The notes under the pieces: model-generated | Database searches by the model: none | Seen by the model: the letters and a program-made list of their open reading frames with translations, nothing else | What the model was told of the DNA's origin: nothing | Program-made: the position numbers and the translations under genes | Virus record (IMG/VR): IMGVR_UViG_3300042558_000080 | Location: 1 to 38,265 of that record | Source: a virus | Reading direction: 5' to 3' (one strand) | DNA: 38,265 nt | Shown here: positions 1,450 through 30,412 of the stretch, in pieces | Numbering within the stretch: the first letter of the stretch is position 1 | Layout: every line of letters begins with the position of its first letter

Positions 1450-1947
1450 CTACGTTCTAGCAAATTCTTTGTGAATTTTTTTGGCAGCTTCTAAGTAAGC
1501 CTCTCCCGCTTCTTTTTCACTCTTAAAGCATCCTAAATAATGACGTTTTTTCATAAATGTAATTTCTGCAACCCAAGAGTTTTGATCTTTTACTTTATAT
1601 GTTCCTTTGTAATTGTTTTTTGTGTTTGCATATTTTTTTTTGTTCATCATGTTTTGTTGATGGGTTACTTCTCTAAGATTTGAAATTTGATTGTTAGTCC
1701 TATTTCCATCTATGTGATCTATGTTTTTTGGAGTCTTTCCGTAGACTATCACCCATATCAATCTATGAACTCCATAATTTTTTACTTTGCCTGACAATTT
1801 TGTGCAAACTTGAATGTATCCATACCTATCTTTTGCAGAAATTGGCTTTGACAAATTTGTTGTGTTCGATCTTTTAACCTTCCAGTAAAGATTGCCAGTT
1901 TTTTCGTCATACCTAAAATTTTCCAACAAAATTTCTTGAGTAAGCAT
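1450..1947 (-). CDS. AP2-HNH homing-type endonuclease, copy 1
   Basis: 165 aa. The HNH_3-type nuclease core covers residues about 55-92: H61-R62, then the IDHIDGN segment with D77/H78, and N87/N90 in the NQISNLR motif. An AP2-type DNA-binding domain follows at about 110-155 (WVAEITFMKKRHYLG, CFKSEKEAGEAYLEA). This is the standard build of free-standing phage HNH homing endonucleases, which cut unoccupied target sites and are copied into them. I chose ATG 1947 because TTGGAGG lies just upstream; the spacing is short (about 4 nt). It has its own promoter (2078-2106) and a structured leader RNA (1962-2071). Codon use is more AT-rich than the neighbours, consistent with a mobile insert. Confidence 0.9.
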   Translation of the reverse strand: MLTQEILLENFRYDEKTGNLYWKVKRSNTTNLSKPISAKDRYGYIQVCTKLSGKVKNYGVHRLIWVIVYGKTPKNIDHIDGNRTNNQISNLREVTHQQNMMNKKKYANTKNNYKGTYKVKDQNSWVAEITFMKKRHYLGCFKSEKEAGEAYLEAAKKIHKEFART

Positions 1948-1961
1948 ATGGCCTCCAAGCC

Positions 1962-2071
1962 AAAAAAAAGCCCAAGAGGACAGTCTCATCTTGCGATGTT
2001 GGAGGACATGGCTAGCACCATGCAGACTGCCTTCTTGGGCTTGCTAGATTGTATTATCGCCTCCAAGCGAT
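1962..2071 (-). ncRNA. Structured pseudoknotted leader/small RNA of AP2-HNH cassette 1
   Basis: Minus-strand RNA of about 110 nt with a predicted start near 2071. In 5'-3' order: pseudoknot strand UUGGAGG (2066-2060); outer stem 5' strand (2041-2024); hairpin P2 with CAUGGU/GCCAUG arms (2022-2007); a single U; pseudoknot partner CCUCCAA (2005-1999); hairpin P3 CAUC-GCAA-GAUG with a GNRA tetraloop (1998-1987); outer stem 3' strand (1986-1969), 18 bp with one A-C mismatch and one G-U; then a U-tract (1969-1962). The HNH ribosome binding site follows directly. The same architecture with different stem sequences precedes the second AP2-HNH gene (2737-2847). Possible roles are transcription attenuator, small RNA, or RBS regulation. 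No known RNA family is assigned. Confidence 0.72.
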
Positions 2072-2077
2072 GCAAAA

Positions 2078-2106
2078 ATTTTAAGGGTTTTCACCAATGT
2101 TTGCAA
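2078..2106 (-). promoter_or_regulatory. Putative promoter of AP2-HNH cassette 1
   Basis: On the minus strand: -35 TTGCAA (2106-2101, 4 of 6), exactly 17-bp spacer, -10 TAAAAT (2083-2078, 5 of 6). The predicted start near A2071 is 3-5 nt before the conserved CGCUUGGNGGCG element of the structured RNA. The spacer carries AAAACCCTTAA, resembling elements near other promoters in this genome. Confidence 0.55.
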
Positions 2107-2132
2107 TTTTTTTTTGCTGTAACCTTGCCAGC

Positions 2133-2333
2133 ATGACTACACCAGACCATCACGAAACCGTTGCAGCACAGGAGCTTTGCGTCCATGCAATCCAATCTGT
2201 AAAGCAATACACTTTTGACCCCGGCGACTTTGAAGCAGCTACCGTTGCTCTCTTTGCTCGCGCTATTGAACTCACCACAAAGAAGGAAATCACCCTGTGT
2301 TACCAGCAAAACTCTACTACCTTGAACAACTGA
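2133..2333 (+). CDS. Small hypothetical early protein
   Basis: 66 aa from ATG 2133 (MTTPDHHETVAAQELCVHAI). An upstream in-frame start at 2097 would add a low-complexity stretch encoded by a poly-T run, so I prefer 2133, although no good ribosome binding site is visible. The protein is acidic to neutral and helical, without membrane segments. It overlaps the next gene by 37 nt in another frame. It is the first rightward gene after the divergent control region and probably early. Function not recognised. Confidence 0.6.
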   Translation: MTTPDHHETVAAQELCVHAIQSVKQYTFDPGDFEAATVALFARAIELTTKKEITLCYQQNSTTLNN

Positions 2334-2716
2334 AAGATGGCCCTGTAAGCCATCGAATTATTATGAACAGGATGTCAACACGATTCCATGAGTCACCAGC
2401 AGCCATCAAAGACGCTTTGGTTGCTGAAGGCTACATTGTCTGCGTCAAGAAAGTTTTGCAAGGCAACGGCAAGTACGCTTACCATCACCAGTTAACAGGC
2501 AAATCATTTGTTGCACAAAAGCAACAGCCAAAGGTTTGTGTTGTGCAAGATCAAAAAATTGAATCTGATGCTTGGGAAGATGGCACAGCCAAGTCAACAG
2601 GCAATGCCTTCAACTGGCGCAACAAAGATCAAGCCATCTTTACAAAGCGTGAGGTAACAATCATGCAGCAGAACTACACGAACCATCCTCAAATCACTGT
2701 TTACAGTAGGGCTTGA
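2297..2716 (+). CDS. Hypothetical protein with winged-helix-like N-terminus (GTG start)
   Basis: 139 aa, starting at GTG 2297 with AAGGA about 10 nt upstream. Residues about 1-60 (LYYLEQLKDGPVSHRIIMNR, then a second helix and VAEGYIVCVKKV) look like a small helix-turn-helix/winged-helix module: a two-helix segment followed by a beta turn carrying GNGKYAYHHQL. The C-terminal half is polar and low in structure. Position next to the replication genes suggests a regulatory or replication-accessory role, which is inference. The promoter and structured RNA of the second endonuclease cassette overlap and follow its 3' end, as if the cassette had inserted immediately after this gene. Confidence 0.65.
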   Translation: MLPAKLYYLEQLKDGPVSHRIIMNRMSTRFHESPAAIKDALVAEGYIVCVKKVLQGNGKYAYHHQLTGKSFVAQKQQPKVCVVQDQKIESDAWEDGTAKSTGNAFNWRNKDQAIFTKREVTIMQQNYTNHPQITVYSRA

Positions 2717-2729
2717 GTGGTGGTATAGT
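2700..2729 (+). promoter_or_regulatory. Putative extended -10 promoter of AP2-HNH cassette 2
   Basis: -35 TTTACA (2700-2705, 5 of 6), 18-bp spacer, -10 TATAGT (2724-2729, 5 of 6) with an extended -10 TGG just before it (2721-2723). The predicted start is near A2737, four nt before the conserved CGCUUGGNGGCG element. The -35 lies inside the end of the upstream gene. Confidence 0.6.
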
Positions 2730-2736
2730 TTTACCC

Positions 2737-2847
2737 ATGACGCTTGGCGGCGTTTTCGTAGTGGGGTTACACATGCTGTCTGCTGGTACTACGCCAGTCC
2801 GCCAACGCTTTAAAAAGCGAGACAGCAGGTGTAGCCCCTTTTTTTTT
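2737..2847 (+). ncRNA. Structured pseudoknotted leader/small RNA of AP2-HNH cassette 2
   Basis: About 111 nt from the predicted start to the end of the U-tract. In order: pseudoknot strand UUGGCGG (2744-2750); outer stem 5' strand (2763-2781); single G; hairpin P2 CUGGU/GCCAG (2783-2797); single U; pseudoknot partner CCGCCAA (2799-2805); hairpin P3 CGCUU-UAAA-AAGCG (2806-2819); outer stem 3' strand (2820-2838), 19 bp with one mismatch and one G-U; nine U (2839-2847). Compared with the copy at 1962-2071, stem sequences differ but pairing, order and inner junctions are the same, and the middle pseudoknot pair changes from A-U to C-G. The endonuclease ribosome binding site (GGGGA) follows the U-tract at once. 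Confidence 0.75.
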
Positions 2848-2857
2848 GGGGAATTTT

Positions 2858-3331
2858 ATGGTGGAAAATTTGTGTCACAAAAGACTTACAGAAGTGCTTT
2901 TGTATGAGCCAGAAACAGGGCGATTTTATTGGAAGAAATCTGGTTCAGGCCGTAAAGTTGACGTACAAGCTGGAAGAGTTATGCAGAAAGGCTATCGACA
3001 GATTACCGTTGATTACAAGCCATATTTGGAGCATAGACTTGCATGGTTTTATGTTTACAAAACGTGGCCAAGATTTTTTATAGATCATATAAATGAAGTC
3101 AAATCTGATAACAGAATCTTAAATTTACGAGATGTTGACCAAACAACCAATCTTCTTAATCAATCAAAGCCTCAAAAAAATAACAATACTGGATTTAGAG
3201 GTGTTAGCTTTTTTCAAGGCAATCAAAAGTATCGTGCTCAATTGATGATTTCTGGAAAGCAATATCATCTAGGTTATTTTGACACGGCAGAAAATGCTTA
3301 TCAGGCTTACTTAACAGCAAAGTTGGCCTAA
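2858..3331 (+). CDS. AP2-HNH homing-type endonuclease, copy 2
   Basis: 157 aa. HNH core: H59-R60, then IDHINEVKSDN with D76/H77, N85 and N89 in the RILNLR motif. The AP2 DNA-binding domain is at about 110-152 (GFRGVSFFQGNQKYRAQL, then YHLGYFDTAENAYQAYL). I chose ATG 2858 because GGGGA lies 6 nt ahead; an upstream in-frame TTG at 2846 falls inside the U-tract. The C-terminus (AYLTAKLA) is about 8 residues shorter than copy 1, possibly clipped at the insertion edge. It is clearly diverged from copy 1 yet carries the same type of leader RNA. The next gene starts 2 nt after its stop, so the insert has left the downstream reading frame intact. Confidence 0.9.
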   Translation: MVENLCHKRLTEVLLYEPETGRFYWKKSGSGRKVDVQAGRVMQKGYRQITVDYKPYLEHRLAWFYVYKTWPRFFIDHINEVKSDNRILNLRDVDQTTNLLNQSKPQKNNNTGFRGVSFFQGNQKYRAQLMISGKQYHLGYFDTAENAYQAYLTAKLA

Positions 3332-3333
3332 TC

Positions 3334-4107
3334 ATGCACTACTACCAGTTCAGTATTGGCGACTATCGAGCCGCCACAGCGCATTTATCCAATGAAGAAG
3401 ATTTGGCTTACCGCCGACTTCTGGATATGTACTACGACACAGAGCAAAAGATTCCACTGGATACCCAGTGGGTTTCCAGACGCTTGCGAGTGGATGCCCA
3501 CGTGGTCAAGGATGTCCTAAACGATATGTTTGTTCAGCATGAAGATGGCTGGTATCACGCCAGATGTGCTGATGTAATTGAGCAATATCACGCAATGGCC
3601 GAGAAGAATAGGGCCAATGGTCGCCTTGGAGGACGTAAAAAGAACCCAGTGGGTTCCGACTCGCAACCCATCGCTAAGGCAACTATAAACCAAGAACCAA
3701 TAACCATTAACCATAAACCAAAGAGAGAGAGCGCAACTGTCGTTGCTTGCCCACTTGATGTTGGTTTACAAGAATGGCAAGATTGGTTGTCACTCAGAAA
3801 AGCCAAGAAAGCACCTGTAACGGAAACGGTGTTGAAGTCAGCTAGAAAAGAAGCGGAAAAGGCGGGTATTACCCTTAACGCATTTCTGACTATCTGGTGT
3901 GCAAGAGGTTCACAAGGGCTTGAGGCTTCTTGGCTAAAGTCTGATGAAAAGCAAAACCAGACAGAGACTGTTTACCAGCGATCAATGCGATTGAAGATGC
4001 AAGAAGCAGTGCCAAGCATTGCCAAGCAAGCACCTTACCAAGACGCAAGCGATTTCTTTCGCACCATTGACATGGACTCACAGAAAGCTATTGAGGTGAA
4101 CAAATGA
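3334..4107 (+). CDS. YdaU/DUF1376-family putative replication protein
   Basis: 257 aa. The N-terminal ~90 residues match the DUF1376 (YdaU) signature: HYYQFSIGDYRAATAHLS, EDLAYRRLLDMYYDTEQKIP, then a winged-helix-like region. A linker at about 88-100 (NRANGRLGGRKKN) is also typical of the family. The C-terminal half (EWQDWLSLRKAKKAPVTETV, then a helical region) resembles the second domain often fused to YdaU proteins. Family members occupy the replication-initiator position in many prophages; direct origin binding here is inferred. The next gene, possibly a helicase-loader-like protein, overlaps by 4 nt. Confidence 0.8.
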   Translation: MHYYQFSIGDYRAATAHLSNEEDLAYRRLLDMYYDTEQKIPLDTQWVSRRLRVDAHVVKDVLNDMFVQHEDGWYHARCADVIEQYHAMAEKNRANGRLGGRKKNPVGSDSQPIAKATINQEPITINHKPKRESATVVACPLDVGLQEWQDWLSLRKAKKAPVTETVLKSARKEAEKAGITLNAFLTIWCARGSQGLEASWLKSDEKQNQTETVYQRSMRLKMQEAVPSIAKQAPYQDASDFFRTIDMDSQKAIEVNK

Positions 4108-28867: not shown

Positions 28868-30412
28868 ATGAGCAATGTAACTGTCACTGTAATTGATGGC
28901 AACAACGTCAATCTTGAAGTAGTCCCACAACCTCGCGTAGAGGCTAGGATTGACCGTGGCGTAGCTGGCGCTGTTGGACCTACTGGCCCTGCTGGTAGCG
29001 GCCCTACTGGTCCACAAGGTATTGCTGGTCCTACGGGTCCAACTGGCGCTTTAGGGCCAACAGGAACTGGACCAACAGGCCCACAAGGTATTGCTGGTCC
29101 GACAGGTCCACAAGGCGTTCAGGGCATTCAAGGCGTTCAAGGCGTTCAAGGTGATGTTGGTCCTACTGGCTCACAAGGTGTGCAAGGAGATATTGGCCCA
29201 ACTGGACCTCAAGGAGTTCAGGGCGTAGTTGGACCTACAGGCCCACAAGGTGTTCAAGGCGACATTGGAGCAACTGGACCTACAGGCGCACAAGGCATTC
29301 AAGGTGATACTGGCCCAACAGGTTCGCAAGGTATTCAAGGTATTCAAGGCGAACAAGGCGTTGCTGGACCTACTGGACCGCAAGGCGTTACTGGACCGAC
29401 AGGACCGCAAGGCATCCAAGGCATTCAGGGCATACAAGGCGATTTAGGCCCAACTGGACCTACGGGCGCTACAGGTCAAGGCATAACCCTTAAAGGCGCT
29501 GTTGCAACTGTTGGTGATTTGCCATCTACAGGCAATACACCCGGTGATGCTTACATCGTTAATTCTGATGGCAATTTGTATGTGTGGGATGGCGTTGCTT
29601 GGGATGACGCAGGGCAAATTGTTGGTCCAACAGGTTCCACAGGTCCACAAGGCGCTACTGGCCCTACAGGTCCAACAGGATCACAAGGTGAAGTAGGACC
29701 GACAGGTCCACAAGGTATTCAGGGTATTCAGGGTGATGTCGGTCCGACAGGTCCACAAGGTGTGCAAGGCATACAAGGTATTCAAGGCGATGTTGGTGCT
29801 ACTGGACCAACAGGCGCACAAGGCGACACAGGGCCAACAGGACCACAAGGAATTCAAGGTAATACAGGGCCAACAGGTCCGCAAGGCATCCAAGGCGATG
29901 TTGGAGCTATTGGCCCGACTGGTCCGCAAGGCATTCAAGGAATCCAAGGCGATGTTGGGCCAACAGGACCACAAGGGATTCAAGGTATTCAAGGTGTACA
30001 AGGTGACACTGGCGCAACAGGCCCGACAGGTCCACAAGGTAATGTTGGTCCAACAGGCGCAACTGGTCCAACAGGTGCAATGTACGGCAGTCGCGTAGTG
30101 TCATATGCTGATGCAACAAGCATTACCATAAATGCTGATACAACTGACATGGCAACGATGGCAAACACACAGTCTGCTGGAACATTTACTTTAAATGCCC
30201 CTACTGGCACTTTGGTAAATGGTCAAAAGTTAATGTTTAGGATGACTAGCACAAACGTGCAAACTTTTAGTTGGAACGCTGTTTTTCGAGGTTCAACTGA
30301 TTTAAGTTTGCCAACAGCATCTTCTGGAACTAGCAAAGAAGATTACATGGGCTTCATTTATGACAATACTGCTGTCAAATGGGATTTGATTGCTAAGAAC
30401 TTTGGATTCTGA
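28868..30412 (+). CDS. Collagen-like tail fibre protein
   Basis: 514 aa. A short N-terminus ([20 protein letters not shown]) is followed by Gly-x-y triplets, mostly GPT, GPQ and GIQ/GVQ, at about 36-202. A small globular insert at about 203-250 ([15 protein letters not shown]) interrupts, then a second collagen-like block runs to about 400. The C-terminal ~110 residues are a beta-rich knob ([20 protein letters not shown]). It should form a trimeric fibre. Abundant GPT triplets are candidate O-glycosylation sites, and a glycosyltransferase gene lies 3.3 kb downstream. Confidence 0.85.

Follow-up and report, generated by a model that had tools for sequence, protein, structure and literature searches.

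A 38-kb virus record (IMG/VR IMGVR_UViG_3300042558_000080, positions 1 to 38,265; hereafter the window, by which we mean this whole stretch of DNA) carries two copies of a leader RNA of about 105 nt that almost certainly represents an undescribed family of structured RNAs with a conserved fold. The two copies are divergently oriented: copy A is on the minus strand, from the hairpin P0 at 2071 to the end of its U-tract at 1962, and copy B on the plus strand, from P0 at 2739 to the end of its U-tract at 2847, and the stretch 1962-2847 comprises both copies and unrelated coding sequence between them. The RNA carries two loop-to-strand pairings, and it is a general early-gene leader of these phages, not an accessory of HNH endonucleases. 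We give roughly even odds (a probability of about 0.5) to the reading that it is an attenuator, in which both pairings would form before the outer stem P1 is complete, compete with the terminator stem and gate entry into the replication operon.

From 5' to 3' the leader consists of a -10-like box, the hairpin P0 with its six-base loop K1, a short spacer, the strand K2 and the 5' strand of P1, followed by one base, the hairpin P2, one U, the strand J, the hairpin P3, the 3' strand of P1, the U-tract, the ribosome-binding region and the start codon. K1 is UUGGNG and J is CCNCCAA in most elements, K2 is mostly 6-7 nt long, and the two pairings arise because K1 is complementary to J and the P2 loop to K2. 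An earlier note on this DNA, made from the letters of the window, had described P1, P2, P3 and K1:J; the P0 hairpin, the K2:P2-loop pseudoknot and the promoter/terminator framing are added here. Its account of two copies with a shared order of elements, inner junctions of 1, 1, 0 and 0 nt and a pseudoknot with an A-U middle pair in copy A and a C-G one in copy B holds for both copies. The upstream motif that it gave as CGCUUGGNGGCG does contain the pseudoknot strand, but is itself a stem-loop, P0, with K1 as its loop.

A conserved fold with two loop-to-strand pairings

Shuffled controls and a covariance model had both been named as checks on the fold. The window contains the two-part motif twice and none of 100 shuffles contains it, and the two copies fold with z of -4.3 and -4.1, none of 200 shuffles being as good in either case. 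The calibrated model, which had copies A and B among its training sequences, recovers both in the window at 101.8 and 78.6 bits, with the next best match at 17.5. Two copies in one record are unusual, since each of 50 records searched whole (many of them fragments) carries one strong copy; the K2/loop pair differs between copies A and B.

A first pattern scan of viral contigs gave at least 120 loci among the matches listed, which a structural test blind to the outer-stem sequence split into scores of at least 38 and at most 18. Sixty-two of the 120 pass this test in its strict form and 56 fail, so the search pattern alone is a weak criterion of membership; two true members dropped by the strict test because of contig ends or a different P3/P1 (L060 and L119) were recovered by the covariance model. 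Two more scans used parts of that motif and contributed 56 members among 57 new loci and 31 among 41, again among the matches listed. Because most loci come from patterns containing K1, the constancy of K1 is partly imposed. Scans without K1 in the pattern yielded 50 members among 100 loci when the fourth base of J was forced to differ, and one (L400) among 53 when position 6 was; non-member candidates of these two scans score at most 16. The family comprises at least 208 instances (200 in IMG/VR contigs, one in a named phage record, five in genomes or metagenome-assembled genomes (MAGs) and two in the window), which collapse to at least 145 distinct elements, the basis of most counts below. 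Left out of the 208 are L119 and L132 (same element as L041), the re-fetched L121, L122 and L157-L187, as well as L060, which failed the strict rule, and L406, found later. When the base before P2 and the P3-P1 gap were each allowed to be 0-2 nt with a small penalty, all high-scoring hits but L060 had lengths of 1 and 0, respectively; later scripts fixed all four junctions.

The earlier proposal of a conserved, covarying pseudoknotted RNA is borne out, although the covariation rests on 39 non-redundant and 145 distinct sequences and not, as first put forward, on a single genome. In the alignment of the 39 (drawn from 62 distinct elements after removal of near-duplicates and of L072), pairing is seen in 97.2% of cells, compared with 75.3% with shuffled partners and 36-44% once partners are slid by 1-3 columns; both-sided changes occur in 26 of 37 pairs, and P0, P1, P2, P3 and K1:J all covary. 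Shuffle statistics ignore relatedness, and the breadth of differing pair types is the better guard. For P0, partly fixed by the first pattern and search-fixed at its innermost C-G pair even when the pattern is loosened, the loosened pattern returns the stems CGC/GCG, CAC/GTG, TGC/GCA and CTC/GAG, and TGC/GCG twice. K1 and J pair at six of six positions in 207 of the 208 instances, and among the 51 members from the K1-free scans the P0 loop pairs fully with J in 50, the other (L363) reaching five of six. Compensatory changes are found at three positions, namely the N position, UUGACG/CGUCAA and UUGGUC/GACCAA, the last in a genome identified with a covariance model that contained no pseudoknot. 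K2 and the P2 loop form on average 6.21 contiguous pairs over the 145 elements, compared with 3.58 when spacers are shuffled and 4.20 when elements exchange loops, and this is achieved with 50 distinct K2 strings, some of which differ in length only.

In the four stems, G-U cells outnumber A-C cells by 173 to 63, in line with the sense-strand RNA as the acting form. This excess, together with the fixed orientation of the promoter-like box and U-tract, speaks against a DNA element such as a replication origin with hairpins acting in the DNA, which we find scarcely credible even though the element often lies beside replication genes.

Promoter and terminator framing and a proposed switch

In 119 of 144 distinct upstream regions the best match to a -10 box has its end 7-13 nt ahead of the P0 core, as against 22 of 144 regions shuffled once each, and the position of this box predicts that the RNA would start at or just before P0. 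At the other end, P1 extends over 16-19 bp, counted to the first T of the U-tract, and 129 of the 138 mismatched P1 cells in the 145 elements fall at positions 9 and 10 from the top (in 43 and 86 elements), so that a regular stem of terminator-like form is left in the lower 6-9 bp. In 142 of 144 elements (L072 left out), 4-9 consecutive T's follow P1 directly. In 143 of 145 elements (all but L028 and L149) an open frame has its start codon 10-23 nt beyond the start of the U-tract, and in 138 the distance is 16-23 nt; in the three elements lacking a U-tract the distance is measured from the equivalent position. A start codon this close to the U-tract leaves no space for another promoter, and the gene therefore needs read-through. 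Judged from sequence, then, a putative terminator stands between the predicted promoter and the gene start, as it would in an attenuator. Upstream, 92 of 131 elements have an open reading frame (ORF) of at least 45 codons that stops no more than 30 nt from P0, compared with 10 of 131 random points.

We considered how the same framing might serve a stand-alone, trans-acting phage small RNA with its own promoter, a 5' end capped by P0 and a terminator at its 3' end, in which other RNAs would be bound through K1, K2, J or the P2 loop and the downstream gene would depend on leaky read-through. The conserved -10-like box, the place of P0 near the predicted 5' end and the terminator-like 3' end are all compatible with such an RNA, and the joint diversification of K2 and the P2 loop, visible also in the differing pairs of the two window copies, is what self-recognition would lead one to expect. 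A trans-acting RNA would, however, have no need of a start codon at so constrained a distance, and nearly all elements offer K1 and K2 a partner within the same molecule; we regard this alternative as unlikely. A structured but unregulated 5' leader or processing site, in which P1 blocks nucleases or RNase III cuts at the mid-stem mismatch and the U-tract aids ribosome binding, could account for the length of P1, for mismatches placed almost only at positions 9-10 and for a U-rich stretch just before the ribosome-binding site. It leaves two separate covarying loop-strand pairings unexplained, however, as well as a U-tract set directly on the stem base in the fashion of a terminator, and we consider it distinctly improbable.

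The attenuator reading turns on the position of K2. The gap between K2 and P1 is 0-2 nt in 133 of 145 elements, the two overlap by 1 nt in 11 and they are 4 nt apart once, whereas the partner of K2, the P2 loop, lies beyond the far end of P1, some 45-53 Å away for 16-19 bp at a helix rise of 2.8 Å per bp. Both K2:loop and P1 could thus be fully formed only if the base of P1 opens. We suggest that RNA polymerase starts just upstream of P0, as the conserved -10-like box indicates, and that the transcript acts in cis as the leading part of phage early operons, the commonest gene behind it being one for replication. As the RNA emerges, K1 would meet J and K2 would meet the P2 loop, since both partners are transcribed ahead of the 3' strand of P1. 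With K2 holding the P2 loop, the lower half of P1 could not close fully and polymerase would pass the U-tract to the start codon; were the early pairing lost, P1 would close, its lower 6-9 bp beside the U-tract, and transcription would stop. Candidate triggers are polymerase speed, a phage or host factor, or a ribosome at the upstream stop codon, because such a ribosome would cover P0. Where K1 recurs at the ribosome-binding site, as it does in some HNH leaders, J might block translation as well.

In support of an early stage, nested folding of transcripts cut after J gives K1:J in 129 of 145 elements and K1:J with K2:loop in 90. The full-length nested folds contain P0 and P2 with neither early pairing in 143 of 145 elements, and those of both window copies include the complete P1 stem. 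Several observations weigh against the proposed switch. The combined fold is absent after J in 55 of 145 elements and survives in only 30 of 145 once the first eight bases of the P1 3' strand are added; of the window copies at the early stage, A has K1:J together with P2, and B forms both pairings in the transcript ending at J but adopts another fold when P3 is included. These folds come from ViennaRNA, which has no pseudoknots, and the mutual exclusion of K2:loop and full P1 is argued from geometry. Median energies are -10.7 kcal/mol for the lower P1 helix, -6.0 for K2:loop and -7.5 for K1:J, so the terminator fold wins at equilibrium and read-through would have to be kinetic or factor-driven. 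In addition, K2 and the loop form fewer than five pairs in four elements, and three (L072, L188 and L189) keep the fold without a U-tract.

Two other ways of relating the pairings to termination can be set beside the attenuator. A put-like antiterminator, in which the pseudoknotted RNA would itself bind RNA polymerase and carry it past the element's terminator and those further on, would suit an element that adjoins promoter-like sequence; HK022 put, by the abstract of PMC9378689 a cis RNA element for early phage genes, has the same setting. Yet the element contains a terminator-like stem, and the adjacency of K2 and P1 would go unused; we hold this to be rather improbable. A topological terminator switch is a reading that, with all its parts taken together, we can offer only as a doubtful one. 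In it the K2-loop contact would close the 5' strand of the terminator into a loop, round which the polymerase-anchored 3' strand could not wind. Read-through would then be the default in fast transcription, and opening the contact would stop the replication operon. The K2/loop pairs would act as lineage-specific codes that make the switch orthogonal between co-resident phages, and homing endonucleases would have captured the switch, some of them adding a second lock at the level of translation.

Genes behind the leader

Sixty-four of 65 downstream proteins, the wrongly placed ORF of L072 being left out, were scanned and gave matches to DUF1376 (14), HNH_3 (10), NUMOD4 (6) and GIY-YIG (3), and 22 match a PHROG family named primosomal protein. 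BLAST clustering of the 144 downstream ORFs (one element, L227, has none) extends these labels by cluster membership: 63 replication- or primosomal-like ORFs are the largest group, followed by 24 small ORFs in two groups, 23 HNH, 15 ParB-like, about 11 further endonucleases of HNH, GIY-YIG and endonuclease-VII type, and eight others.

The earlier note leaned towards an RNA linked to mobile endonucleases and expected matches upstream of AP2-HNH genes, and this stands in part. About 34 of the 144 downstream ORFs are endonuclease-like, but the majority of elements lead replication-like, ParB-like or small genes, and an HNH-specific RNA is rejected on this ground. The wider form of the idea, that the element belongs, as an RNA or as a DNA end, to a mobile HNH element and travels with the endonuclease, we consider very improbable: phages with the leader and no endonuclease gene behind it are the majority here, each record searched whole has a single strong copy, and in copy B, which heads the replication side, the HNH gene is an extra item standing between the leader and a DUF1376/primosomal gene.

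What does bind some copies of the leader to HNH genes is a second complement of J. The hairpin GGC-UUGGAG-GCC lies near the start codon in five elements (copy A, L013, L085, L216 and L232), all leading HNH-cluster genes, and with three others they make eight of 145 elements whose ribosome-binding region has 6-7 contiguous bases complementary to J, as against 0 of 145 shuffled regions. All eight precede members of the 23-strong HNH cluster (hypergeometric 1.3e-7, uncorrected for the kinship of the five). Because of this association, endonuclease genes seem to have captured a phage leader, to which some lines may have added a translational lock. The three elements without a U-tract (L072:2036-2145, L188:1501-1620 and L189:1501-1603) likewise lead HNH-type genes, the L188 protein matching HNH_3 and AP2, and by eye L072 and L188 have a short hairpin, GGUCU...AGACC, between P1 and the HNH-type start codon.

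Upstream of the leader, YdaS matches were found in 20 and P22_Cro matches in 13 of 38 scanned proteins, counts that are not a rate because the 38 were hand-picked from 62 with a leaning to recognisable ones. In the isolate Polynucleobacter sp. UK-Kesae-W10 (L149), a helix-turn-helix repressor-like gene on the other strand and a small ORF precede the element, which is followed by a replication gene with a PHROG match and then a helicase-loader-like gene (order partly by eye). Between its U-tract and the replication gene (L149:3203-3290) a short open frame, seen by eye, overlaps the gene start and is a possible leader peptide.

Features of the window are collected in Table 1. The copy A endonuclease matches HNH_3 and AP2; further left on the same strand is a 213-amino-acid gene of unknown function, joined, if the genome is circular, by Gp157/Gam-like and MazG-like genes. 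Elsewhere on the plus strand, an ORF at 6147-6440 matches the RecA-dependent nuclease family PF16786, and a long ORF of collagen-like Gly-Pro-Thr repeats at 28868-30412 perhaps encodes a tail fibre (by eye).

Table 1. Features of the two leader copies and the genes behind them, in window coordinates.
Feature	Position	Strand	Remark
Copy A promoter-like sequence TTGCAA-17-TAAAAT	2078..2106	-	1 kb holds 4 sites of this type against a chance expectation of 1.0; place of the -10 box conserved in the family
Copy A P0, 5' hairpin	2056..2071	-	K1 loop UUGGAG at 2061-2066
Copy A K2 CUAGCA	2042..2047	-	partner is the P2 loop
Copy A P1 5' strand	2024..2040	-	folding, covariation
Copy A P2 hairpin	2007..2022	-	loop complementary to K2 at 2012-2017
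Copy A J strand CCUCCAA	1999..2005	-	partner is K1
Copy A P3 hairpin	1987..1998	-	folding
Copy A P1 3' strand	1970..1986	-	lower part is the terminator-like stem
Copy A U-tract	1962..1969	-	sequence
Copy A ribosome-binding-site hairpin GGC-UUGGAG-GCC	1950..1961	-	second complement of J
AP2-HNH endonuclease gene behind copy A	1450..1947	-	start at 1947 our choice; includes stop codon
Copy B promoter-like sequence TTTACA-18-TATAGT	2700..2729	+	
Copy B P0 hairpin	2739..2754	+	K1 loop UUGGCG at 2744-2749
Copy B K2 CGUAGUG	2757..2763	+	last base doubles as first base of P1
Copy B P1 5' strand	2763..2781	+	folding
Copy B P2 hairpin	2783..2797	+	loop complementary to K2 at 2787-2793
Copy B J strand CCGCCAA	2799..2805	+	partner is K1
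Copy B P3 hairpin	2806..2819	+	folding
Copy B P1 3' strand	2820..2838	+	lower part is the terminator-like stem
Copy B U-tract	2839..2847	+	sequence
AP2-HNH endonuclease gene behind copy B	2858..3331	+	
DUF1376 / primosomal O-like replication gene	3334..4107	+	type often directly behind the leader in other phages; span also given as 3334-4104

Distribution and comparison with known RNAs

The family is found almost only in metagenome-derived viral contigs. The named phage records with the element, MW202462 and MW202544, are equally long, come from Manatee Spring and are probably one phage; in MW202462.1 a hypothetical protein deposited on the opposite strand across the element (L156:817-1059) is probably not a gene. 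In genome contigs, four of 33 pattern matches are members: the Polynucleobacter isolate, two Burkholderiales MAGs (L128 and L141) and a Betaproteobacteria MAG (L132). The covariance model with stricter filters found the element in one of 186 genomes of the genus of L149, three of 398 of its family, two of 399 of its order and one of 398 of its phylum, each count including the L149 genome itself. To judge from this sampling, the element belongs to phages, is rare in sequenced hosts and, where a host is named, has been seen only in Betaproteobacteria. On one viral contig a Betaproteobacteria-1 RNA (RF02932, E 1.3e-17; L104:10563-10680, plus strand) lies 3.4 kb downstream of the leader element.

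The leader RNA is placed where a temperate phage decides on replication. If the switch is real, it would be an RNA-level gate on phage replication that sets one contact of 6-7 bp against a single terminator stem, neither an N-like protein nor a metabolite having come into view so far, and it would suggest why homing endonuclease genes are found behind the leader, where they would share a ready-made early promoter and brake.

No Rfam family matches the element, in agreement with the earlier note, which had recognised no named family. At gathering cut-offs Rfam 15 has no match in the window and four in ten relatives, none of them at the element, and scans at permissive settings, run on the window region and on L098, brought up only sub-threshold matches (best E 0.61 and 0.48). 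A literature search found nothing describing the leader RNA, going by titles and the starts of abstracts. Named phages searched with three other element types gave no match, and with the copy A region five records, each covering about 4% of the query, within endonuclease genes.

Among known folds, hepatitis delta virus (HDV)-like ribozymes have a comparable nested double-pseudoknot strand order (K1-P1-P2-J-P3-P1 in our naming), running from the outer helix through an inner hairpin, a strand pairing back 5' and a second hairpin to the 3' strand of the outer helix. In those ribozymes the joining strand before the outer 3' strand, J4/2, holds the catalytic C, whereas in the leader RNA that strand has length zero and the 5' pairing strand sits in a hairpin loop. 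With no J4/2, the P3-P1 gap being 0 nt as noted above, an HDV-like ribozyme is rejected, and none of the Rfam ribozyme models matches the element. HEARO and omega RNAs are HNH-linked, but the consistent nuclease linkage that characterises them is not seen here. The put RNA is not known to have a terminator of its own.

By the abstract of PMC9378689, HK022 put is a cis RNA of early phage transcripts that affects termination; that abstract mentions no P0, three-way junction or two pseudoknots. Polynucleobacter-1 RNA (RF01718), described in excerpts of PMC2864571 as a likely cis-regulatory RNA of Burkholderiales from fresh water and estuary, was rejected, since none of 16 records and genomes, including the window and 11 other viral records without any match, has a match above cut-off. 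Its three weak matches (E 3.6-7.6) fall in host genomes on contigs other than that of the element, and six of 14 control genomes have the like.

Related in kind are the crcB and pfl riboswitch-type attenuators, whose overlapping terminators appear in the same excerpts (PMC2864571) and which likewise place a structured leader and a terminator before a gene. The leader described here differs from them in having no ligand or known aptamer consensus, its covarying contacts being two loop-strand pairings, and in being phage-borne, before replication-like, ParB-like and endonuclease genes. Phage lambda has a terminator between a cro-like gene and the replication initiator (cro-tR1-O), and the leader RNA, with YdaS and P22_Cro matches among the picked upstream proteins, resembles it in position but adds a promoter-like box and a terminator that is pseudoknotted rather than simple. 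A leader with a conditional terminator is of a known kind; as far as tested, novelty lies in the family itself, in its pair of loop-strand contacts and in its location ahead of phage replication genes.

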